From contig NZ_JAQFFK010000003.1 of the NCBI RefSeq assembly GCF_027594145.1, positions 434,001 to 498,000 of the forward strand: 64,000 nucleotides of DNA, given 5' to 3'. Positions 29,001 to 44,991 of this stretch are shown here, piece after piece; the first letter of the stretch is position 1, and each line of letters opens with the position of its first letter. The notes below the pieces were generated by a model. The model did not search any database and was not told the DNA's origin. It saw nothing but the letters and a program-made list of their open reading frames with translations. The position numbers were made by a program, and so were the translations under genes. The DNA is from Methanococcoides alaskense (GTDB taxonomy: Archaea; Halobacteriota; Methanosarcinia; Methanosarcinales; Methanosarcinaceae).

Positions 29001-30125
29001 TTAAATCCATCCTTTTTTAATATCTTTTACAATAAGAGTTCCAGAACATCTATTATTTTCATCCGCAGTTATGGAACTATATGCTGAAGGAGTCCCATTT
29101 CGATAAAATTTCGGAATCTCCTCGTGGTTGTAGCTTATCCTTCCTTGAATCCACTTTTGTATTCTTATGCCATTATCGTTTGATTCAATAATTTTGCATC
29201 CCAAATGGACTTTCTTAATCCAATTTTCGTTATGACTATATATTTGAGTTTCAGCAAGTATTGTTACTTTTTGTTCATCATATTCTCTGAAAAATTGTTC
29301 ATCAATATTTCTATTGGCTTCTCTTAATCGTATATCATTATACAACTTCTTCATACTATGTAGTTTCGGAACACTTGATTTTGGATTTTCTTTTGTTTGG
29401 TTATTATTATGCACGCCTTTAATATGCTGCTCCAAACCATTTGCTGATTTGAATTTTTTATGACAATATTTGCATTTGCGATGGACGTCTTTAATGTGCT
29501 TCTTCAAATTATTTATTGATTGGAACTCTTTCTCACAAAATTTGCATATGATGTGGGCATCTTTAATATGTTTATTCAAGAGAATTTCTGATTGGAAATA
29601 TTCTCCACAGTATTTGCAGATGCTATGTTTGTCTTTAATGTGCTGCTTCAAAAGAATTTCTGACTGGAAATTGTTGTCACAATATTTACAATTGTAATGC
29701 ACATTTATAAGATGCTGTTGCAAAATATCTTTTGATTGGAAGTATTCTCCACAGTATTTGCATGTGGTATGCACGTCTTTAATATGCTGTTTCAAGAGAA
29801 TTTTTGATTGGAAGTATTTATGACAATATTTGCATATGATATGGTCGTCTTCAATATGCCGTTGCAAAATATCTTTTGATTGGAATTTTTCATCACAATA
29901 TTTGCAAAAATAAGTATTCAGGATATTAGAAGAATATGCTAGGTGCTTCCCTTCATCCTCTACATGAATTGTTGGTAGTGGAGGTTTCACAGTTGATAAT
30001 GATACTGTCTTTGCTAGACCAAGTTCATCTTCATCTTTTACTTCCTTTACGTATGCAGAAGTCATACAATTGCTACAAAATTCATTAAATCCAACAGATT
30101 GCCCACAACTTCTACACATTAGCAT
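29001..30125 (-). CDS. Seven-finger C2H2 zinc-finger protein
   Basis: About 374 aa (GTG at 30140 is another start). An N-terminal zinc ribbon CRSCGQSVGFNEFCSNC is followed by a 60-residue linker and seven tandem C2H2 fingers with strict C-x2-C-x12-H-x4-H spacing and only two residues between fingers (period 24 residues, 72 nt). The fingers are alike (CKYC..FQS..LL..HIKDVH), which shows recent tandem expansion. A 130-residue C-terminal domain of unknown type follows. Multi-finger C2H2 arrays are rare in archaea. It starts about 80 bases after the BglII-like endonuclease gene on the same strand. Nucleic-acid binding is likely; the target is unknown. Confidence 0.8.
   Translation of the reverse strand: MLMCRSCGQSVGFNEFCSNCMTSAYVKEVKDEDELGLAKTVSLSTVKPPLPTIHVEDEGKHLAYSSNILNTYFCKYCDEKFQSKDILQRHIEDDHIICKYCHKYFQSKILLKQHIKDVHTTCKYCGEYFQSKDILQQHLINVHYNCKYCDNNFQSEILLKQHIKDKHSICKYCGEYFQSEILLNKHIKDAHIICKFCEKEFQSINNLKKHIKDVHRKCKYCHKKFKSANGLEQHIKGVHNNNQTKENPKSSVPKLHSMKKLYNDIRLREANRNIDEQFFREYDEQKVTILAETQIYSHNENWIKKVHLGCKIIESNDNGIRIQKWIQGRISYNHEEIPKFYRNGTPSAYSSITADENNRCSGTLIVKDIKKGWI
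29465..29965 (-). repeat. 72-bp tandem repeat array encoding the zinc fingers
   Basis: Seven units of 72 bases, each encoding one C2H2 finger plus a two-residue linker. The DNA units are still clearly alike (for example the recurring ACAGTATTTGCA and TTTAATATG segments), so slippage or unequal recombination could change the finger number. Confidence 0.6.
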
Positions 30126-30207
30126 ATTATAGCCTATCACTTAAAATCATATAACGGTTTCTGAAAATCATTGAGATGTTCAGGTGGAAGTTAAATATGA
30201 AAAAACA

Positions 30208-33447: not shown

Positions 33448-35538
33448 TCAATTCCCTTCTGCTAATTCAATTCCATTCAAAAAAGCTTCAAGAGCAACTT
33501 TCATATTTTCATTTAAATCAACATAATTTACTGATTCTTTAATCTCGATAAGTCTCTCTTTTATATAACTCACTTCAATAAGTTGATTCAAACTAATAAC
33601 AAGTTGAACCCAATTAGCCCAATTTTTTTGCGTAAAATCGATAGGCTGTATTGCATGATGTTCCATAACATTAGTTATTAACAGTAATAATGCGTCATCA
33701 TCTAAAGCTATCAATTTCGTGTAATTCTCAAGTTCATCTTTAGCACGCCATTTACCCATAAATTGTAGTATGGGGTAGAAATGAGGTGAATGTATTAATT
33801 TTCCCTCTTTTAGACATGCACTAAATCTATTACATATCAATTGCTTCAGTTCATCAAGGTCTTCATAACTTATGAATTCATTTTCATCATTTTCAAGCGA
33901 AGCTATTTCTTTTGCAACAATATAGAGACTATTATTCGCATAATTGGTACTCTTTTTAAGGATATTATATCTTTCTTTTCGAGATTCAATTTTTTTGAGC
34001 AAAGAATAAATTATCTCTTGAATATAAAAAGAATTTGTAGACGTTTCCTCAAGTGAATCGCCAACAACAAAAATGGCTGTAACAAACGATTCGATATCTT
34101 CGACTGGAATTATATCGGTTTTATCAAGTAAACTAATAAGAAAGTCTGAACCTTTTCCATCCTTGATAATATTTTGAATTGATTCCAATATTGTCACAAC
34201 ATCGTTTCCTTTGCTAAGAAGAATTTTCATTTCTGCTTGAGAGATTTTTGTTTCTGAAACAGCAAATCTGAAATAGACATTAAAAAAATATTCACTGCAT
34301 ATGCGACGATTTTTTCTCCATAATACATAAGCTTCAGAGCTATGGGTGGTATTTCCATAAAAAGAGCTAAGTTTTGGAAATAACATAGTTAAGAAATTCT
34401 GCAAAATGTTTCTACGTTTGATATCGTACCTATTGAGAATTTCCACACAAATTGCTTTGTCATTATCATTTTGTGAATTGCTAGAAACTTCAGTACTTAA
34501 AAAGACATGACGGTTGGATTTTATTTCTTGATATAATTCTGGTAAAAATACTTGAATTGCTGTTATTCCAATGAAATCGATAACATTGACTTCTTCTTTT
34601 AATACCTCATAGTTGAAATTTGCAACATTAATGTACCTGTTTATGTCCCTAATGTTATTAAAAAAATGATAAACTCCACGATTAAGCATCTCGATGTAAG
34701 CTTTTTCATAAAAGTCGTCGTGTGGATTTCTAACAATGATTTTTGAAATTTGAGTGTCTAATAAGGAAATTAATTCTGACCTTGAAATTTCTGGCAATTC
34801 AAAAGGAATTTGAACTATCTTTTCCAAATATTGATTCCCGTTTCCACATTGTTCAGTTTCTAAAGCTTTTGAAACAACTTCTCTATCAAAAGTTAGAACA
34901 TATGTTGTATTTGGGAAATCAGCTATAGATTTAACAAGTTGAAATATTTGTTTGATTTCAATTTCATTCAAACGGTCAATGTCATCTATCACAATAATTA
35001 TGCGTCCATCGTATTTAATCTGATTTTCACAAATTTCATTTTTAATTTCTTCTATACTTTTATTGTGATGACCAACAATTTCAGCAAGTTTGCCAACAAG
35101 ACCTGATGCGACTGAAGTGCTAATCACAAATGGAAGAAACTGTGGTACTATAGATAATGGCAAAATTGCTTTTGAATACGTTTTGAACATTTTTCCACTA
35201 TTTTTTAACCATTCACTATTGTCTTCTCTACAAAAGTCGTTAGATAATTGATTAAAAAACTGGCTTATCAGTTGATTTTGATTTGAAAAATTCCATGGGT
35301 TGAAGTTTATGATAATTGGACTTTTGTTTTTATCAAAATTTGTTGATTCATTTTCAACATGCTCTAAAACCATATTAATAAATGATGTTTTTCCATAACC
35401 CCATTTTCCATAAATGCCGATTACATGACTTTCTTTATTCGAATCTGCTAATAATGCATCACCCAATTCCTTAGCAACACCTTTCCTTCCAAGAGCATCA
35501 TCATCAATGGACGTAATTGGTTTGTCTGGATTGAACAT
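33448..35538 (-). CDS. KAP-family P-loop NTPase
   Basis: About 696 aa from the ATG at 35538, which has an AAGGTG site upstream; a GTG at 35550 is an alternative. GIYGKWGYGKTSFINM is the Walker A (about residue 45), IIINFNPWNFSNQNQL the KAP-typical strand, and IIVIDDIDRLNE the Walker B. Two hydrophobic segments between them (about 118-145) match the membrane insertion found in KAP proteins. The C-terminal half is helical and unassigned. KAP ATPases occur in many defence loci, often as membrane-linked signalling ATPases. Confidence 0.85.
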   Translation of the reverse strand: MFNPDKPITSIDDDALGRKGVAKELGDALLADSNKESHVIGIYGKWGYGKTSFINMVLEHVENESTNFDKNKSPIIINFNPWNFSNQNQLISQFFNQLSNDFCREDNSEWLKNSGKMFKTYSKAILPLSIVPQFLPFVISTSVASGLVGKLAEIVGHHNKSIEEIKNEICENQIKYDGRIIIVIDDIDRLNEIEIKQIFQLVKSIADFPNTTYVLTFDREVVSKALETEQCGNGNQYLEKIVQIPFELPEISRSELISLLDTQISKIIVRNPHDDFYEKAYIEMLNRGVYHFFNNIRDINRYINVANFNYEVLKEEVNVIDFIGITAIQVFLPELYQEIKSNRHVFLSTEVSSNSQNDNDKAICVEILNRYDIKRRNILQNFLTMLFPKLSSFYGNTTHSSEAYVLWRKNRRICSEYFFNVYFRFAVSETKISQAEMKILLSKGNDVVTILESIQNIIKDGKGSDFLISLLDKTDIIPVEDIESFVTAIFVVGDSLEETSTNSFYIQEIIYSLLKKIESRKERYNILKKSTNYANNSLYIVAKEIASLENDENEFISYEDLDELKQLICNRFSACLKEGKLIHSPHFYPILQFMGKWRAKDELENYTKLIALDDDALLLLITNVMEHHAIQPIDFTQKNWANWVQLVISLNQLIEVSYIKERLIEIKESVNYVDLNENMKVALEAFLNGIELAEGN

Positions 35539-35700
35539 AATATAGTACACCTTCTACTTTATTGATGAAGTATGCACATGTTATAAGATATTATCGAAAA
35601 TTTATTGGTGCATAAACAAAAATCACAATAAAATTAATCAGAAATGTTTGATAGGAGATGGAATACTTCGAACGCCCACTATATGCTGAGATGGTGAAAA

Positions 35701-35778
35701 TCATTTTGCTTTTTTCATTTTATGGACTTTACAATGATAGTTATATCCTGCCACTGACCTAAACGATTCGTTACACTA
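35701..35778 (-). other. In-frame extension past TAG completing a C2H2 finger (candidate 2)
   Basis: Beginning with TAG at 35776-35778 the frame stays open for 24 sense codons to TGA at 35701-35703. The two cysteines flank the TAG (C-K-TAG-C), then twelve residues, H, three residues, H: a perfect C-x2-C-x12-H-x3-H. The TAG sits where the seven-finger protein has tyrosine, one base change from TAT or TAC. The W-x-C-x2-C-x-E-S/T-F...GY..H pattern matches the last finger of the 155-aa paralog. Confidence 0.6.
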
Positions 35779-36336
35779 TTTACAAACCCATATCGAATGC
35801 ATATATTCATAACCCTTAATTATATATGTCTTTTTTTTCTTTGAACGCCCGAGTTCAATATATATGGAATGTTTTTTTCGAAGGTGAGCAGCAACCTCCT
35901 CCATATTGTTTCCTATTTTTTCACAAAGTGCACACCTATACTTTCTTGAATTGTGCATTTTTAGAATATGGTCATGAAAACTCTTATTATCAGTAAATTC
36001 CAAATCACAAAAACCGCAAATATTGTCAAATTTAGAGTTTGGGCTGTATTTTATAACTTTTTTACTTGTGTGTTTGTCTTTCACATGCTCTTTAAGTGAA
36101 ATTTCACTCGGAAATAACTGATTACAATGTTTGCAGCGGTTGAATAGGGATGATGTTGTTCCTTCAATAGGCTTATAGCGTGTATCGGGATTGTCTTTTG
36201 TTCCAACTTTCAGCTCGATTGTTGAATATGGCTTTTCTTCAGGTTTAACATCTACATAACAGCAACAATTCATACAGTAATGTCCTGCTCCCGAATTCGA
36301 GCTTGTTGGCTCCCCACAGCGTCTGCATAATGCCAT
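35776..36336 (-). CDS. Zinc-ribbon/C2H2 zinc-finger protein, TAG-terminated
   Basis: 186 aa to a TAG, 211 residues if the TAG is read through. N-terminal zinc ribbon CRRCGEP...CMNCCC (residues 4-27), then C2H2-type fingers at CKHCNQLFPSEISLKEHVKDKH, CGFCDLEF...HILKMH and CALCEKI...HLRKKH. The frame ends WVCK-TAG, inside what is clearly a fourth finger (see the extension feature). ATG with GAGG eight bases upstream. It lies downstream of the paralogous 155-aa gene and hsdR on the same strand. Confidence 0.75.
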   Translation of the reverse strand: MALCRRCGEPTSSNSGAGHYCMNCCCYVDVKPEEKPYSTIELKVGTKDNPDTRYKPIEGTTSSLFNRCKHCNQLFPSEISLKEHVKDKHTSKKVIKYSPNSKFDNICGFCDLEFTDNKSFHDHILKMHNSRKYRCALCEKIGNNMEEVAAHLRKKHSIYIELGRSKKKKTYIIKGYEYMHSIWVCK

Positions 36337-36378: not shown

Positions 36379-36846
36379 TCAGCATATCTCACGAAGATGA
36401 TTTTTATAACCCACTTCAAAATCAAATGTTTCACCGCACTCAACACATTCCCATGTTTTTGTCAGATATCGCTCTAAAATTACTGGTGAAGGAATAATTC
36501 CATCATTTCTTTTTTTAATTTCAAAAGGATGTTCTTTTATTATGTGACTAATACTTTCGGATTTATTTTTAATTTCTAACTTGTCACAAAAAAGGCATTG
36601 GTATGTGATAGGATGAACAGCATCTAAGTGAGATTCAAATTCTTCTTTTGAATACGATAAAAAACTGCAATATTTGCAATTATATATAGGTTTGATTTCC
36701 GTGAATATCGATTCTTTTATCACATAATCCGCTTTTCTAAAAAAGAATACATAGCAACCACATTTCCGACAGAAATGTCCCAATTCCGATGTCGTTCCTG
36801 TTATTGTTGTATCCCCACAATGTGGACATTTAGTCAAAATACTCAC
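36379..36846 (-). CDS. Zinc-ribbon/C2H2 zinc-finger protein
   Basis: 155 aa from a GTG; a TTG four codons in is better spaced from GGGAG. N-terminal ribbon CPHCGDT...CRKCGCYV, then finger-like units CKYCSFLSYSKEEFESHLDAVH, CLFCDKLEI...HIIKEH and a final CVECGETFDFEVGYKNHLREIC in which the last ligand is cysteine. It begins 36 bases after the hsdR stop and precedes the 186-aa paralog, so both look like accessory genes of the type I restriction operon. Function is unknown; DNA or RNA binding is likely. Confidence 0.72.
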   Translation of the reverse strand: MSILTKCPHCGDTTITGTTSELGHFCRKCGCYVFFFRKADYVIKESIFTEIKPIYNCKYCSFLSYSKEEFESHLDAVHPITYQCLFCDKLEIKNKSESISHIIKEHPFEIKKRNDGIIPSPVILERYLTKTWECVECGETFDFEVGYKNHLREIC

Positions 36847-36882: not shown

Positions 36883-39876
36883 TCATGAAGACAAAGCCAC
36901 GACTTCTTCATTCAGCTTCTTGTAGACGCTCCGAATGAGTATCTCTTTCACCTTACTCGCAAAGTCAGTATCATCCATTATCTTCGCAAAGATGTCCCCA
37001 TTTTGTTCCATACGACCAATCAGAACATCTGTGAAAACGTCCTCAAACCCAAATTTGAAATTGTCTACGGTATTGTTCCTTGCCTGCTTTGAAAGACCTT
37101 CATTTGCTACAAGGTCTGCTTCTATCTGTTCAAAGAAAAGGCGGTCTGCATCAGTGAAATCTGTTCCGAAGCGGTCGTTGAGCACTTTTATGATTTCGGA
37201 AAGATGAGCTAGCTCTTCCTTTTCTTTCCTCATACCTGCTTCAGAAGTAGGGTCAAGTACTCCATTTTCGGGCTGGAGACTGATTGAACCTTCGTTTATC
37301 TTCTGCAAGCGGTAATACTCCAATGCTACTTCATCGTCAAGCTTCAGCATTTTGGAATTATCTGTTCGTGGCAACTTCTTCAGGAGCATGCGACCATATG
37401 CATAGAGTTTTTCCAGTTCCATATCCTGGAATGGCATTATCTGTGACAGGAACGAATAGAGTCTGACGAAGGATGTGAGTGTGTGCCTGAAGTCTTCCTG
37501 TTCTTCTTCGGGTGCAATTCCCCTGTAACGTTCAACGGCAGGGTCTATGTAAGCATTAAGCTGTGCATTGTCCTTCTGAGTATGTCTGTTCTCTGAGCGG
37601 AAGAAAACATTGCAGAAATTGTTGACCTCGGTCTGCCAGAATACCTGTGCAGATTCCAGTCTACCCTTAAGGTCGTAGAGAAGGTTTGGGTTTGTGCTTT
37701 CGCTAAGACTCGTTTGCTGGTAGTAAGGCTGGAATGACAACAGGATATCATCTTTGTCATTTACGAAATCGAGAATGAAAGTGTCTTCCTTACCTGCATG
37801 AGTTCTGTTCAGTCGGGAAAGGGTCTGTACGGCTTTGACACCAGAGAGTGCCTTGTCAACATACATTGTGTGAAGAAGAGGCTGGTCGAATCCGGTCTGA
37901 TACTTCTCAGCTACAAGAAGCAAACGATATTCTTCAGTATTGAACTTCTCAGGCAGTTCTTTTTCACTGAATCCGTTCATTTCAGGTTCTGTAAATGAGT
38001 TGCTATATTCGTCAGTCACTGTTCCTGAAAATGCAACGAGTGCTTTGATATCGGAGTAACCTTTTTCTTTGATGTAGCGGTCGAATTCTTGTTTGTACTT
38101 AACAACGTGTGGGCGTGAAGATGTAACGACCATCGCTTTTGCCTGCCCACCAATCTTTTTCATGGTGACCTGGCGGAAGTGTTCTATCATGACCTCTGTT
38201 TTCTGGGCAATGTTGTAAGGATGAAGTGATACAAACCTTGCAGCTGCTCGTTTTGCCTTCTTCTTGTTAAGAGAGGGGTCGTCCTCAATAGTCTTAGAGA
38301 GCTCGAAGAATGTCTTATAGGTGACATAGTTCTTGAGAACGTCCATGATGAACCCTTCTTCGATTGCCTGTCGCATAGAGTAGAGATGGAATGGCTTTTT
38401 CTGACCGGATTCATCCTCTGTTCCAAAAACATCGAGAGTTTTGGATTTAGGGGTTGCTGTAAAGGCATAGAAGCTCAGGTTTTTCTGTTGTCCCCTAGAT
38501 GCCATCACCTTTCGCATCTGGTCTTCAGCATCGTCATCTTCTTCCCCACCCTCTTTAGAAATAGTATCCATGTCGGTAGCTGCAAGTATTACCTTCATCT
38601 TTTCCGAGGATTTGCCACCCTGAGAACTGTGAGCTTCATCAACGATTACGGCATACTTCCTTGCAGGCATATCTTCCACTTTGTCGATGATGAATGGGAA
38701 TTTCTGCAATGTAGTAATGATGATGTTTGTACCGGAATTGAGAGCGGATGCCAGTTGCTTTGAATCCTTGTCAATCTTCTGGACAACGCCTTGTGTATGT
38801 TCGAACTGGAAAATAGTATCCTGAAGCTGTTTGTCAAGCACCCTACGGTCGGTGATGACTACTACTGAATCGAATACCCTGTTGTCATCGTTGTCATAGA
38901 GGCACGATAGATGGTAGGCAAGCCATGCGATTGAATTGCTTTTCCCACTGCCTGCGGAGTGCTCTATGAGATAGTTCTTGCCTGAACCGTTCTTGTGTGT
39001 GTCTGCTGAAAGTTTGCGTACCACATCGAGCTGGTGGAACCGTGGGAAAATCATGGATTCCTTTTTGAGAAGTTTTCCGTCCATCTCATATTTTTCAACC
39101 TGCAAGTGCAGGAACCGACCGATGATATCAAGCCAACTATCTTTCTCCCACACTTGTTCCCAGAGATATGATGTTCTGTAACCGTGAGGATTGACCGGAT
39201 TACCTTCTCCTCCATCACATCCACGATTGAATGGAAGGTATCGTGTGGTTTTACCGGTCAATTTTGTGGTCATGTACGCTTCATCGGTATCAACTGCAAA
39301 GTGTACAAGAGCCCTCTTCTTGAACTTGAACAGAAGCTCGTTCGGTTCTCTGTCGAACATGAACTGCTTTTTGGCATTATCCACGTTCTGTCCTGTGAAC
39401 TGATTCTTCAATTCCACAGTAGCTACAGGCAACCCATTGATGCTTAACAGCATGTCAATGGATTTCTCGCTTTTAAGACTATAATGAACCTGTCTGGTGA
39501 CAGTTAGATTGTTCATCCTATACAGCTTCTGGGTTTCAGGATTAAGACCGCTCACGGGCTTGAAGAACACAGTGTCATAATGGACACCCATGTCTGTGAA
39601 CCCATTGCGAAGTACATCCAACATCCCCTTGTTGTCAAGTTCATTCTGGAGCCTTTTCAGAACCTTAGTCTCAACGATTCCTCCATGTATGGAAACTGAC
39701 TTATCCCATTTATCTGGTTGGCTTTCCTTCAGGAACGATAACATCACACCCTTATCCAATGCAAGTTCCTTGTCATAATTAGCAGGGTTCCCTTGTTTGT
39801 ACCCGCCTTCTTCAAGGAGGTGGCTTTCAATAGCTTCTTCAAAGGCTTTTTCTGTGTGAATCTGAGTTGAAGTCAT
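36883..39876 (-). CDS. hsdR: Type I restriction enzyme subunit R
   Basis: About 997 aa. The N-terminal nuclease domain has the PD-(D/E)XK core near LPVATVELKNQFTG (about residue 160). The translocase follows: EHSAGSGKSNSIAWLAYHL (Walker A), VVITDRRVLDKQL, IVDEAHSSQGG (DEAH box), FTATPKSKTLDVFG and the QTLSRLNRTHAGK motif VI region. A helical C-terminal domain that contacts the methylase completes it. The ATG at 39876 has GGAG nine bases upstream; one at 39891 is also open. Fourth gene of the operon after the GmrSD-like gene; intact. Confidence 0.93.
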   Translation of the reverse strand: MTSTQIHTEKAFEEAIESHLLEEGGYKQGNPANYDKELALDKGVMLSFLKESQPDKWDKSVSIHGGIVETKVLKRLQNELDNKGMLDVLRNGFTDMGVHYDTVFFKPVSGLNPETQKLYRMNNLTVTRQVHYSLKSEKSIDMLLSINGLPVATVELKNQFTGQNVDNAKKQFMFDREPNELLFKFKKRALVHFAVDTDEAYMTTKLTGKTTRYLPFNRGCDGGEGNPVNPHGYRTSYLWEQVWEKDSWLDIIGRFLHLQVEKYEMDGKLLKKESMIFPRFHQLDVVRKLSADTHKNGSGKNYLIEHSAGSGKSNSIAWLAYHLSCLYDNDDNRVFDSVVVITDRRVLDKQLQDTIFQFEHTQGVVQKIDKDSKQLASALNSGTNIIITTLQKFPFIIDKVEDMPARKYAVIVDEAHSSQGGKSSEKMKVILAATDMDTISKEGGEEDDDAEDQMRKVMASRGQQKNLSFYAFTATPKSKTLDVFGTEDESGQKKPFHLYSMRQAIEEGFIMDVLKNYVTYKTFFELSKTIEDDPSLNKKKAKRAAARFVSLHPYNIAQKTEVMIEHFRQVTMKKIGGQAKAMVVTSSRPHVVKYKQEFDRYIKEKGYSDIKALVAFSGTVTDEYSNSFTEPEMNGFSEKELPEKFNTEEYRLLLVAEKYQTGFDQPLLHTMYVDKALSGVKAVQTLSRLNRTHAGKEDTFILDFVNDKDDILLSFQPYYQQTSLSESTNPNLLYDLKGRLESAQVFWQTEVNNFCNVFFRSENRHTQKDNAQLNAYIDPAVERYRGIAPEEEQEDFRHTLTSFVRLYSFLSQIMPFQDMELEKLYAYGRMLLKKLPRTDNSKMLKLDDEVALEYYRLQKINEGSISLQPENGVLDPTSEAGMRKEKEELAHLSEIIKVLNDRFGTDFTDADRLFFEQIEADLVANEGLSKQARNNTVDNFKFGFEDVFTDVLIGRMEQNGDIFAKIMDDTDFASKVKEILIRSVYKKLNEEVVALSS

Positions 39877-39920
39877 TAATAAATACTCCATACATGAGGA
39901 ATTATTGACAAATTATGATG

Positions 39921-41717
39921 TTATAGAGAGTAGTAATACTCTTTAATCTTTTTTGCAATCAATTCTCTTCTTTTTATCAAGAACTCATCATAATCTTTGA
40001 TGTCCATTGAGAATACATCTTCAGGAATACAGTTCATCTTCAGGTTCTCATGGAAAACGTTTTCATCACAGATTGCACCATACTTTGCATTTCCTGTAGC
40101 ACATTGCTCTTTCAATTCATTGAAATATATGTCTGGAGCTTTGCTACCAACCTGTATATTGATTTCACTCTGCATGTAAACATAGTTGGCAATCTGATTG
40201 TAGCGTCCTCTTTTGAGACCGTTTTTCTTCAGATATTCTCTTGGAAATATATGGTGGATATCTCCATGATGACTGATTAAATCGTCTACAGTGATGTCTT
40301 TTGACAGAAAACCCTGGTCTTTGTTCTTTACCTGTGATGCAAGATATACGTTGAAATAAGGGCTGCTTGAAACTGAGGAGTCCAGATTCTGTATCAGTCC
40401 GACATCAAAGAAGGTGTCTGAAAGTTCTGCCTGTTCAACGCTCCTCAGATATTCTCCAAAGTCCTTGGTAGCGATGTTTTTGATATCTCGGTCAAATTCA
40501 GATTCAGGAGAACTGGAGTATCTTCCGGTGAGAACTGAAAGTACAAACCATCTACGTACATATTTCCCGATGTCAGCTGGTTTGTAACCCATTGATTTTA
40601 ATTTTAAGTAAACTATGTAGGCAAAGTTTAGGGAATTCTGTGAACGGATAAGTTTGGAAGAAATAAATCCTGCCGACCTTATTATCATCAGGAATCTCTG
40701 GAAACTATGTTCGTTCATAAACTTGTAAATACCCTGTTCCAGTGTCTCAAATGACTGTTTTGCAATCTCTTCTTCATAGGTTCTGGTTTCGAAATTCCTT
40801 CCTGAAAGCAAACCTACTAGGTCAGAAAGTCTTCCTCTTTCAAATTCCGATGTGAAAACTACCCTTAGCATATCTGTGTACCTTGGGTCGTAAAGGTCAT
40901 CATTCTCATTCTTCAACCAGGACATTTTTCGGAAGTATTCTGTTGAAGAGAACTCCGTATCAACATCTCTTATCTGTTCATAAAATTCCGGTGCTACAGC
41001 CATATGGCAAAAGTAGTCGATAGCTTTTCTGATAGTGGAACCATTATAATCTTCATTTGCAGCTATCTTTGACATTGCAAAATCAGCCTGACTTAAAGTT
41101 ACTCCCTTGGAGTTTATCCTTATGAAAACCTCAGTTACTGTTTCAATGTCAAGGTCAGAATCCAATTCTATCAGACCGAGTTGTTTGTTGGTAATATTCT
41201 TCAGATTTTCAAGGGTATTTTCAACATGTATTTCATCAACATCTGGATTTTTCTCACAATAATCTTTGAAAAACCGAATTAATCCCACTTCTTTATTGAT
41301 AAGTGGAGATATATCATGAATCCAAGAATTGTCTTTCTCAATTGCAGAATTTAGAACCTCAAATCGTTCTTTAATAGGATGGAAAGCTATCCTTATCTTT
41401 GTTTTTTTGTAATTACTATCGATAATATAATTGCCCAGAATGGCAGCATTTAGAGCCATCACTCTCTGTTGACCATCAATCAGAATTTTCTTTCCTTCGG
41501 AAACGGTTCCATCCTTAAGTTTAACATTTGGATTTCTCCATGCAATGAGATAACCAATCGGATAACCCTGATACAATGAATCCATAAGGTCTCTGACCTG
41601 TGTAGAATTCCATACAAAGGGTCTCTGAATCTCAGGTATTGCTATCTCACCAGACTTTACCCAGCTCAATACTGCCTCAATTGACTGTGGGTTTACTGTA
41701 TATTTTTGAGTTTTCAT
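39921..41717 (-). CDS. DUF262/DUF1524 GmrSD-like protein inside the type I operon
   Basis: A 598-aa protein. The N-terminal DUF262 ParB-like nucleotidase domain carries [31 protein letters not shown] and [11 protein letters not shown]. The C-terminal part has an HNH-like site, [18 protein letters not shown], as in DUF1524. The fused two-domain form resembles GmrSD, a modification-dependent nuclease against glucosylated phage DNA. Its ATG overlaps the hsdS stop by four bases (ATGA), so it is translated with the S subunit. Confidence 0.82.
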
Positions 41718-42991
41718 TCAAGTACCCCAATTTCTTTTCTAACATCAATTTTACCTGTTACTGCTTCAGAGATGAGTGATGTGCGATATTCTTGTAGGAA
41801 GGAGATTTGACTTTGGATTTTGGCTATCATTCTAGTTGAATTTATGATAGTTGAATTTATTAAATCTGTAATTAAATTCTGTTCGGAACAAGTTGGAAAT
41901 GGAATTAATAGATTAGCAATAAAATCCCAATTTGCACGTGGCATCTTTGAACCATAAGTGGAACTATTTACTTCTGTTATAAAATCTTCAGATAAACATC
42001 GATAGTACAAGAAATCAGAGGTAATGAGATTACTATGTCTTAAAACTAATATTTCACTTACACAAATTCCAGCCTCTTGAGCTTTATAGACTTTTGCAAG
42101 ATATGGTCTCAATTTTCCAAATAGAACATCGTCTTCATTAAAAACAATACCTTCAGATTCAAAAGCATTATCAGAATCTAAATTAACCAATTTTCCAGTC
42201 CAACTTTCAATATTTTCTAAGGCAATTTTTAAAGAACCATATGCTTCTTGTTTTTCCCTTGTTTGATTTGCCAAATACTTTAATTTCTTAATCTCCCAAT
42301 GCTCCGGCACTTCTCCCAGCCACTCAATACCCGAATCCTTCATAGGCACATCTGGATTAAGTCCCTTCGTCACTGCCTGATTGATAATTGCAGTTCGTTC
42401 CTCTTTTAGCAGTTCGATTTGCTTCTGCTTCTTTTCGATGAGGGCGCCAATTTGAGATGTTTTTTGGTCGAGGAAGGTGCCGATGGATTGTTGTTCAGTA
42501 AGAGGTGGAAATGCTAATCGGAGGTTCTGAAAATTTTCTTTTGAGAGATATTGTTGGATTGCACCTGAACCAAGTGATTGTAGTCTTTCACTACTTGCAT
42601 TCATTAAATGATAAAGATAGTTGGAATTTAATTTACTATCAGGTACTATCCCAATGAATGTCTGGTTGGAGAGAAGAGGTTCTTTTACAATTGCTGTTGA
42701 ACCCATAGTACAGCTGCAAGAACAAAGGACTGTTCCAATAGGATAAACCTTGAGGTTCATTGATTCAATTACTTCATTACTAACAAGTTGATTGGATTTT
42801 GATTTTGAGATATCTTTTCCTTCAAAATCTTCAATTCTAATCCATGGGGTGCCAATGTTAGAAAAAGTGGGTTTGTCGCGCATTGGGACTATCATTTGTG
42901 TATGATAACCAAGTTTGTTAACTACCCAATGCTCCGGCACTTCTCCCAGCCACTCAATACCCGAATCCTTGTATGCAGGATATGGCTTCAT
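41714..42991 (-). CDS. hsdS: Type I specificity subunit S
   Basis: A 425-aa subunit with two target recognition domains, each opened by the same block, [15 protein letters not shown] (residues about 7-22 and 212-227), and each ended by a conserved helix (for example [17 protein letters not shown]). The two blocks are identical over 46 bases of DNA. Each domain reads one half of a bipartite site; the sites cannot be deduced here. Its start overlaps the hsdM stop and its stop overlaps the DUF262 gene. Confidence 0.93.
42295..42340 (-). repeat. 46-bp direct repeat in hsdS, inner copy
   Basis: Identical to 42925-42970. Encodes the conserved block that opens the second target recognition domain. 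Confidence 0.85.
42925..42970 (-). repeat. 46-bp direct repeat in hsdS, outer copy
   Basis: Identical to 42295-42340. Encodes the conserved block that opens the first target recognition domain. Confidence 0.85.
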
Positions 42992-44991
42992 TCACTTACA
43001 GCCTCCTTAAGCAGACCTTCCATCTCTTCTTCAAGAACCATGATATCTGTCCTTATATCATCGAGACTGCGAAGTGGAGTGTAATTGTAGAATTCCTTTG
43101 TGAAATTAAGCTCGTAGCCAATCTTCGTCTTGCTATCATCAATCCATGCATCAGGAATGTGTGGGATGACTTCACGCTCGAAATATGCCTGTACATCTTC
43201 CTTCAAATGAATGTTCTCATAGTCACGGAGGTTTGCATCGGGTTCTTGTTCACCTTTCTTTGTGCAGACATCAGCAGTTTCATCCTGTTCGGAGAGAGCT
43301 TTGAGAATGGTCTTGAGAAGTGGTGGATTGATATCGATGCCAGACTTCTTGATATGCTGTTTCAGAACTTTTGTGAATTCATCACGGTTCTTATAGAGCT
43401 TGTCGGAATCCATGGACGAAAGCATCTTAAGGAGGGAATCCTGCAAACGTTTGCCTTCCACTATTTCCTTCTCTGCCGCTTCACCTTTCTTCTTGCTCGA
43501 AGCAATATTGACGAAACCCTTTTCTTCCTTCAGCCTCTCGATTCGTTCTTCACTTGCCTGGAAATTGAGCTTCAGAGGTCTTTCTATGGTAATTCGCTGA
43601 TATCCGAAATCCTCATTGTCGAAAATCTTAGAGAACTCGCTTTCCTTGAAATCGCCATAGAGTTTAGTGATAGTGTTGATGTTGTCAGAACTAACCTCAT
43701 TGCGTTTGTTACCTAGGCTTTTCTTCATCTTATTGTAGAAGTCCACGGCATTGATAAGCTGTATTTTTCCTGCCCTTTTAGCTTCTTTTCGGTTAGTAAC
43801 TATCCATATGTAGGTAGAGATGGGGGTGTTATAGAACAACTGGTTAGGTAAAGCCACGATAGCCTCAAGCATATCGTTCTCGATAATCCATCTTCTAATC
43901 TCACTTTCACCTTTTCCAGCACTTCCTGTGAAAAGCGTAGAACCATTAAAGACGATACCTATACGTGAACCGATGTTGTCATGTTTCATCTTTGAAATCA
44001 TGTGCTGAAGGAAAAGGAACGAACCATCATTTATCTTTGGCAAACCTGCACCGAATCTTCCATCATGTCCCCTACCTTCACTCTCGGCTTTGATGAACTT
44101 CTCCACCTTCTTCCATTCGACACCAAACGGAGGATTGGAAAGCATATAATCAAATTTTTCAGCTTCTAACCCATCTTCTGTAAAGGAATTACCGAATTTC
44201 ATGTTGTAAGCATTCTGACCCTTGATGAGCATGTCTGATTTGCATATTGCATAGGATTCATCATTGAGTTCCTGTCCAAATACTTCCAGCCTTGCATCAG
44301 GATTGAGCTCTTTAAGATATTCTTCTGCAACAGAGAGCATACCTCCGGTACCACAGGCAGGGTCATAGAGTGTTTTAACAATACCTTCCTGTGTAAGTAT
44401 GTCTCTATCATTTACGAAAAGTAGGTTTACCATTAGTCTGATAACTTCTCTTGGTGTAAAATGATGTCCAGCAGTCTCGTTGGAAAGCTCAGAGAATTTG
44501 CGTATCAGTTCTTCAAAGAGATATCCCATTTCGACATTACTTACTTTATCAGGATGTAAGTCTACCTCGGCAAATCTCTTGACAACAAGATAGAGAAGGT
44601 CTTTTTTATCTAATTCTCTTATTTGCTCATCAAATTTGAAATACTCAATGATATTTCTAGCATCCTCTGAAAAACCGTTGATGTAGTTTGAGAGATTGGC
44701 AGCAATGTTGTTAGGGTCTGCTTTCAAGCTCTGGAAATCATACTTGCTTTGGTTATGAAAATTAAAGCCTGCGACCTTATTGAGTACGGGGTCAGTGTTC
44801 TCGATATTCATACTTGCCATTTTTGGAAGATAATCCAGAACCTTCTGTTTTGTGGGTTCAAGGACACAATCCAGCCTTCTCAATACAGTGAGTGGAAGAA
44901 TGACCTTACCATAATCTGCCTGTTTGTAGTCGCCCCTAAGAAGGTCAGCGATGCTCCAAAGGAAATTAGCGTTTTCTGTTACGTTGACCAT
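42988..44991 (-). CDS. hsdM: Type I DNA methyltransferase subunit M
   Basis: A 667-aa N6-adenine methyltransferase. An N-terminal helical domain (about 1-160) is followed by the methylase: HHFTPREVIRLM, YDPACGTGGMLSVAEEYL (AdoMet motif I) and MLSNPPFGVEWKK (catalytic NPPF). The C-terminal part, from about 470, is a long helical extension. With two S-bound copies it methylates host DNA and guides R. First gene of the operon hsdM-hsdS-gmrSD-hsdR; complete. Confidence 0.94.
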   Translation of the reverse strand: MVNVTENANFLWSIADLLRGDYKQADYGKVILPLTVLRRLDCVLEPTKQKVLDYLPKMASMNIENTDPVLNKVAGFNFHNQSKYDFQSLKADPNNIAANLSNYINGFSEDARNIIEYFKFDEQIRELDKKDLLYLVVKRFAEVDLHPDKVSNVEMGYLFEELIRKFSELSNETAGHHFTPREVIRLMVNLLFVNDRDILTQEGIVKTLYDPACGTGGMLSVAEEYLKELNPDARLEVFGQELNDESYAICKSDMLIKGQNAYNMKFGNSFTEDGLEAEKFDYMLSNPPFGVEWKKVEKFIKAESEGRGHDGRFGAGLPKINDGSFLFLQHMISKMKHDNIGSRIGIVFNGSTLFTGSAGKGESEIRRWIIENDMLEAIVALPNQLFYNTPISTYIWIVTNRKEAKRAGKIQLINAVDFYNKMKKSLGNKRNEVSSDNINTITKLYGDFKESEFSKIFDNEDFGYQRITIERPLKLNFQASEERIERLKEEKGFVNIASSKKKGEAAEKEIVEGKRLQDSLLKMLSSMDSDKLYKNRDEFTKVLKQHIKKSGIDINPPLLKTILKALSEQDETADVCTKKGEQEPDANLRDYENIHLKEDVQAYFEREVIPHIPDAWIDDSKTKIGYELNFTKEFYNYTPLRSLDDIRTDIMVLEEEMEGLLKEAVSE

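Follow-up and report, generated by a model that had tools for sequence, protein, structure and literature searches.

Genomic surroundings of the zinc-finger gene

The window, that is, the whole 64,000-nucleotide stretch of Methanococcoides alaskense DNA analysed here, contains a type I restriction/KAP-NTPase island of seven genes, all located on the minus strand. The island comprises the genes of the type I methyltransferase HsdM (42988–44991), the specificity subunit HsdS (41714–42991) and the restriction subunit HsdR (36883–39891), with an HEC-05-like protein (39921–41717; best PADLOC match HEC-05) encoded between hsdS and hsdR. Directly downstream of hsdR lies a pair of zinc-finger genes. 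The first encodes a protein of 155 aa (36379–36846); the second (35704–36336), the sixth gene of the seven, encodes the C2H2 zinc-finger protein considered here and is directly followed by the gene of a KAP-family P-loop NTPase (33448–35550; best PADLOC match PifA). The GC content around the zinc-finger gene is 31–36%, compared with 42% in a sample of 21 stretches of the same genome. From the position of the gene, one might guess at a nucleic-acid-binding accessory role of its product in defence.

Architecture of the protein and the interrupted finger

The reading frame starts with an ATG at 36336 and runs for 186 codons to a TAG at 35778–35776, so that the open reading frame (36336 to 35776, minus strand) ends in SIWVCK-TAG. 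Beyond the TAG, the same frame continues with 24 sense codons (35775–35704), CNESFRSVAGYNYHCKVHKMKKAK, and is closed by a TGA at 35703–35701; the TAG is the sole stop before this TGA. Taken as a whole, the frame has 211 codons, with the TAG as residue 187. The protein consists of an N-terminal CxxC..CxxC zinc ribbon (ligands C4, C7, C21 and C24) and four C2H2 fingers with ligands at positions 68/71/84/89, 107/110/123/128, 135/138/151/156 and 185/188/201/205; all of the zinc ligands are intact, and the spacing conforms to C-x2-C-x12-H-x3-5-H. Finger 4 reads C185-K-TAG187-C188-x12-H201-x3-H205, the TAG being the second residue between the two zinc-binding cysteines, and the 24 codons that follow complete the finger. 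Translation of the minus-strand frame thus reproduced exactly, coordinates included, what the initial annotation had described, namely a TAG inside a C2H2 finger and a C-x12-H-x3-H continuation directly after C-K-TAG.

The 211-residue protein taken whole matches zf-C2H2 above the Pfam cut-off, and the two-finger model zf-C2H2_2 spans residues 135–205, across the TAG, with a score below the cut-off. Neither the 24-residue continuation nor finger 4 by itself passed a Pfam cut-off, and finger 4 was absent from the zf-C2H2 profile matches at E 0.05. The AlphaFold2 model of the protein, with a mean pLDDT of 45, is of too low a quality for finger 4 to be assessed.

Paralogues and distribution

The last finger of the adjacent 155 aa paralogue, WECVECGETFDFEVGYKNHLREIC, carries a glutamate codon, GAG, at the position of the TAG. 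A second paralogue (29001–30140, minus strand) of 379 aa has seven C2H2 fingers; six of them contain the motif C-K-Y-C, with tyrosine encoded by TAT in four and by TAC in two, and the seventh has phenylalanine at this place. The suggestion that the TAG takes the place of a tyrosine therefore agrees with the larger paralogue and disagrees with the adjacent one. Tyrosine is also the commonest residue at that place among the finger-like stretches of the sampled loci (44 of 97 distinct stretches, chance stretches included), and it is a possible ancestral residue at the TAG site; GAG, TAT and TAC are each one base change away from TAG. Since tyrosine, glutamate, phenylalanine and other residues occupy this position of the finger, pyrrolysine may be tolerated at the turn of finger 4.

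Searches of 11 genomes of the genus, 60 relatives and 236 genomes of the class besides its own gave no orthologue of the zinc-finger protein, and the genome_contigs, viral_contigs, plasmids and phages collections likewise had none. At E 1e-5, the protein and its adjacent paralogue were both confined to their own genome among 237 genomes of the class. Distant multi-finger proteins do exist: a family profile search matched 7 of 111 genomes, the genome under study included. Among the listed matches of the family-profile and zf-C2H2 searches, there was no other lone in-frame TAG. A multi-finger C2H2 family with an N-terminal CRSCG...C..C ribbon is present in 4 of the 11 genomes of the genus (29001–30140 of the window; loci L013, L014, L017 and L046).

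Coding status of the continuation

The probability of a finger arising by chance after a stop was assessed with all TAG, TAA and TGA triplets in six frames of 22 stretches of the same genome (the window plus 21 further stretches, each 20 kb long), which cover about a quarter of the genome. A single triplet of 46,790, the TAG of the zinc-finger gene, directly precedes C-x12-H-x3-H without a further stop. It is likewise the only one of the 46,790 for which the next 18 residues score at least 30 (BLOSUM62) against the last finger of the adjacent paralogue, which bears out the resemblance to that finger pointed out in the initial annotation. Similarity to the adjacent paralogue crosses the TAG (query residues 106–203, 26% identity, E 2.4e-6). 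Judging by the unique finger continuation and the paralogue match across the TAG, the 24 codons code for protein now or did so until recently.

Codon usage, scored with a model trained on the same genome, gave −0.07 for the gene and −0.09 for the continuation. The scores of the two paralogues are also below zero (−0.14 and −0.10), and this test lends no support to the zinc-finger gene as a typical gene; atypical codon usage would not be surprising in a GC-poor island. A codon-usage test of post-stop extensions was also tried and was found to be weak, because a following gene in the same frame confounds its TAA and TGA controls.

The same observations can be set within another scheme, in which the TAG mainly terminates, the working product is a 186-residue protein with three fingers and the 24 codons are a recent remnant of a nonsense mutation. 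Three fingers could suffice, and the lack of an orthologue in the 236 other genomes of the class, the GC-poor island and the atypical codon usage would all suit a gene in decay; moreover, UAG still commonly acts as a stop in Methanosarcina (PMC2933860). The remnant has, however, preserved the ligand spacing of the finger and, considering also the use of TAG in the rest of the genome and genus described below, termination as the main outcome appears unlikely.

Pyrrolysine machinery

The genome contains the tRNA-Pyl gene pylT, with a CUA anticodon, and beside it, adjoining mtbA, the genes of PylS, PylB, PylC and PylD, each of which scored above its NCBIfam cut-off (PylC was identified by TIGR03909). 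The presence of pylTSBCD had been put forward as one check of the pyrrolysine idea, which survives it with all five genes found. PylS is present in 11 of the 11 genomes of the genus. The PylS of the genome under study is 97% identical to its counterparts in three Methanococcoides records; with that of M. vulcani, the identity is 85%. Across the 22 stretches, no tRNA other than tRNA-Pyl has a CUA anticodon. A profile search with PF21360, a poor choice of family, gave no match, and Rfam models yielded nothing at the gathering score on the pyl stretch; the PYLIS-type RNA element has been reported as not essential (PMC2933860). The pylB gene (L007:8706–9818) itself ends in TAG, and the extension beyond it looks non-coding; M. 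burtonii, M. mazei and M. acetivorans are reported to have a pylB with the same ending (PMC2933860).

Sequence evidence for TAG as a sense codon elsewhere in the genome and genus

TAG is a rare terminator in this genome: it ends 9 of 371 gene-like open reading frames of the 22 stretches, a set without the zinc-finger gene, which fails the codon-usage filter. This rarity counts against termination as the main fate of the zinc-finger TAG. The window and the 21 stretches contain 41 TAG-ended frames of at least 120 aa, seven of which were chosen by eye as looking interrupted. When read through, all seven match Pfam families. In one of them, a winged-helix protein, the matched domain follows the TAG; in the other six (MtbB, two histidine kinases, TnpB, a DDE transposase and an N6 methylase) it extends across it. 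Many of the remaining 34 frames resemble antisense shadow frames; the 34 also include pylB, the gene of a 2437-residue surface-like protein and the zinc-finger gene.

Single coordinates of genes with an in-frame TAG are as follows: TnpB, L023:12942–14060; an IS5-type transposase, L035:3628–4587; the N6 DNA methylase, L037:5623–6608, whose Pfam match begins at profile position 64; the winged-helix protein, L022:12379–13259; and the surface-like protein, L025:5206–12519.

The use of stop codons inside a conserved domain was followed in HATPase_c across the 11 genomes of the genus, where the best 150 of 426 matches were examined. Twenty-nine of these 150 contain a stop: one TAG in 24, one TAA in three and one TGA in two. 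All 24 TAG codons are internal. Of the five TAA and TGA codons, four coincide with the last residue of the match and terminate the gene itself, which leaves one internal TAA. Within the best 150 of 426 matches, TAG is thus commoner than TAA and TGA inside the domain, by 24 to 1 when matches are counted and by 3 to 1 when sites are counted, and this too argues against a TAG that mainly terminates. The 24 matches represent three sites and hence are not independent: 20 have [IV]-TAG-[ILV] after KFT, three have GG-TAG-[IV] and one has its TAG elsewhere (best 150 of 426).

The main site belongs to a clade of histidine kinases carrying one in-frame TAG at a shared HATPase_c position in 11 of 11 Methanococcoides genomes (L023:2614–4218 and L025:14964–16301; loci L097–L116, L142 and L143). 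In a search of 111 genomes of the family with one of these kinases, the 20 best matches have exactly one TAG each and all belong to this genus; the listed matches of lower rank, whether from this genus or from others, are mostly without a TAG, and the two TAA-bearing matches that come right after the 20 are ordinary gene ends. For one quartet of kinase orthologues, dN/dS is 0.12–0.24 over the 150 codons before the TAG and 0.08–0.26 over the 85 codons that follow it; one pair of the six depends on two changes in the latter part. The low values after the TAG show protein-level selection on the downstream part. On this sequence evidence, the genome and the genus use TAG as a sense codon in other genes as well, and the main-site kinase clade is a conserved candidate for pyrrolysine outside methylamine metabolism.

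The second kinase site, GG-TAG-[IV]MVR, is common to genomes G000, G009 and G008 (L099, L144 and L145). The internal TAA, unique among the listed matches, is found at residue 99 of 111 of a histidine kinase domain (L137, G004:C4:356565–356897).

Reading of the TAG in finger 4

Given the pyl genes and the sense use of TAG elsewhere in the genus, the TAG at 35776–35778 is most likely a pyrrolysine codon. According to this reading, to which we assign a probability of roughly three in four, tRNA-Pyl (CUA) charged with pyrrolysine would decode the TAG, and translation would run on to the TGA at 35701, yielding a protein of 211 residues with a zinc ribbon and four fingers. As residue 187, pyrrolysine would sit in the finger 4 turn that separates the two zinc cysteines. 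A single base change in GAG, TAT/TAC or another neighbouring codon is the most likely origin of the TAG, and such a change would have been tolerated because the genus reads TAG as sense. The TAG was probably brought about by neutral drift, with no special job for pyrrolysine. Weighing against this reading are the lack of an orthologue in the genomes and collections searched, the ambiguous decoding of UAG in archaea with pyl genes, the atypical codon usage of the gene, its GC-poor island, the poor structural model and the pylB gene that ends in TAG. The initial annotation's candidate pyrrolysine thus gains from the pyl genes and from TAG in other genes; we infer the incorporation itself, as well as the identity of the inserted residue, its efficiency and the lack of a special role.

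The decoding of UAG in archaea with pyl genes is described as ambiguous: termination is the usual outcome, and a UAG introduced into M. acetivorans was read through at 20–30% (PMC2933860). This ambiguity, together with the fact that a complete three-finger protein precedes the TAG and a fourth finger is completed after it, would also suit a regulated branch point, at which the pyrrolysine supply (growth on methylamines) sets the ratio of three- to four-finger products in the defence island. The other TAG codons of the genome are situated in unrelated genes, a better fit to drift than to regulation, and such a branch point is decidedly improbable. In its strict form, a pyrrolysine-gated switch would give the four-finger nucleic-acid-binding protein when tRNA-Pyl is charged during growth on methylamines and the three-finger protein otherwise; if this long shot were true, methylamine status would tune a restriction/KAP defence operon through the decoding of a stop codon.

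A sequencing or assembly error in place of a sense codon is scarcely credible: the assembly is incomplete (completeness 76.6%) and a single base change from GAG, TAT or TAC would be enough, but the listed neighbouring genes are open and in-frame TAG recurs in the genus across independent assemblies.

If pyrrolysine at position 187 is confirmed, a zinc-binding knuckle would be shown to hold the 22nd amino acid. Confirmation would also be a further sign that TAG can be an ordinary codon in Methanococcoides, and TAG-ended annotations in this genus may therefore shorten real proteins. For the role of pyrrolysine outside methylamine metabolism, the kinase clade with TAG in 11 of 11 genomes is the better conserved target.

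Comparison with known and predicted pyrrolysine-containing proteins

The initial annotation expected a pyrrolysine in a zinc finger to be new; no earlier report of one was found in the literature searched, and novelty is claimed to that extent. A Science paper of 2025 is said to describe an archaeal ‘Pyl code’ in which all TAG codons consistently encode pyrrolysine, and it may list genes of this kind. The present genome resembles that description, with TAG rare as a gene end and present inside frames, in a genus of Methanosarcinaceae that has the pyl genes.

The methylamine methyltransferases MtmB, MtbB and MttB share with the zinc-finger gene an in-frame TAG and the same decoding machinery; MtbB with a TAG is encoded in the same genome. 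In these enzymes, however, pyrrolysine is conserved and thought to be catalytic (PMC2933860), whereas the turn of a zinc finger is structural and no catalytic role is expected there.

For M. acetivorans, M. mahii and M. barkeri, PMC3639795 predicts a cluster of histidine kinases with an in-frame UAG. The word ‘zinc’ is absent from the main text of that 2013 prediction paper, the ranked list of which is placed in the supplement. Like the zinc-finger gene, the genes of the cluster have a TAG and lie outside methylamine metabolism; unlike it, they encode kinases and occur in several genomes.

A further likeness is offered by the tRNA-His guanylyltransferase Thg1 of M. acetivorans, the pyrrolysine of which is attributed to neutral evolution (PMC2933860, PMC8211752). 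Like the zinc-finger gene, the gene of Thg1 has a lone in-frame UAG, lies outside methylamine metabolism and belongs to a methanogen that bears pyl genes. The pyrrolysine of Thg1 has been physically observed and is reported as not essential, whereas that of the zinc-finger protein is predicted from its gene.
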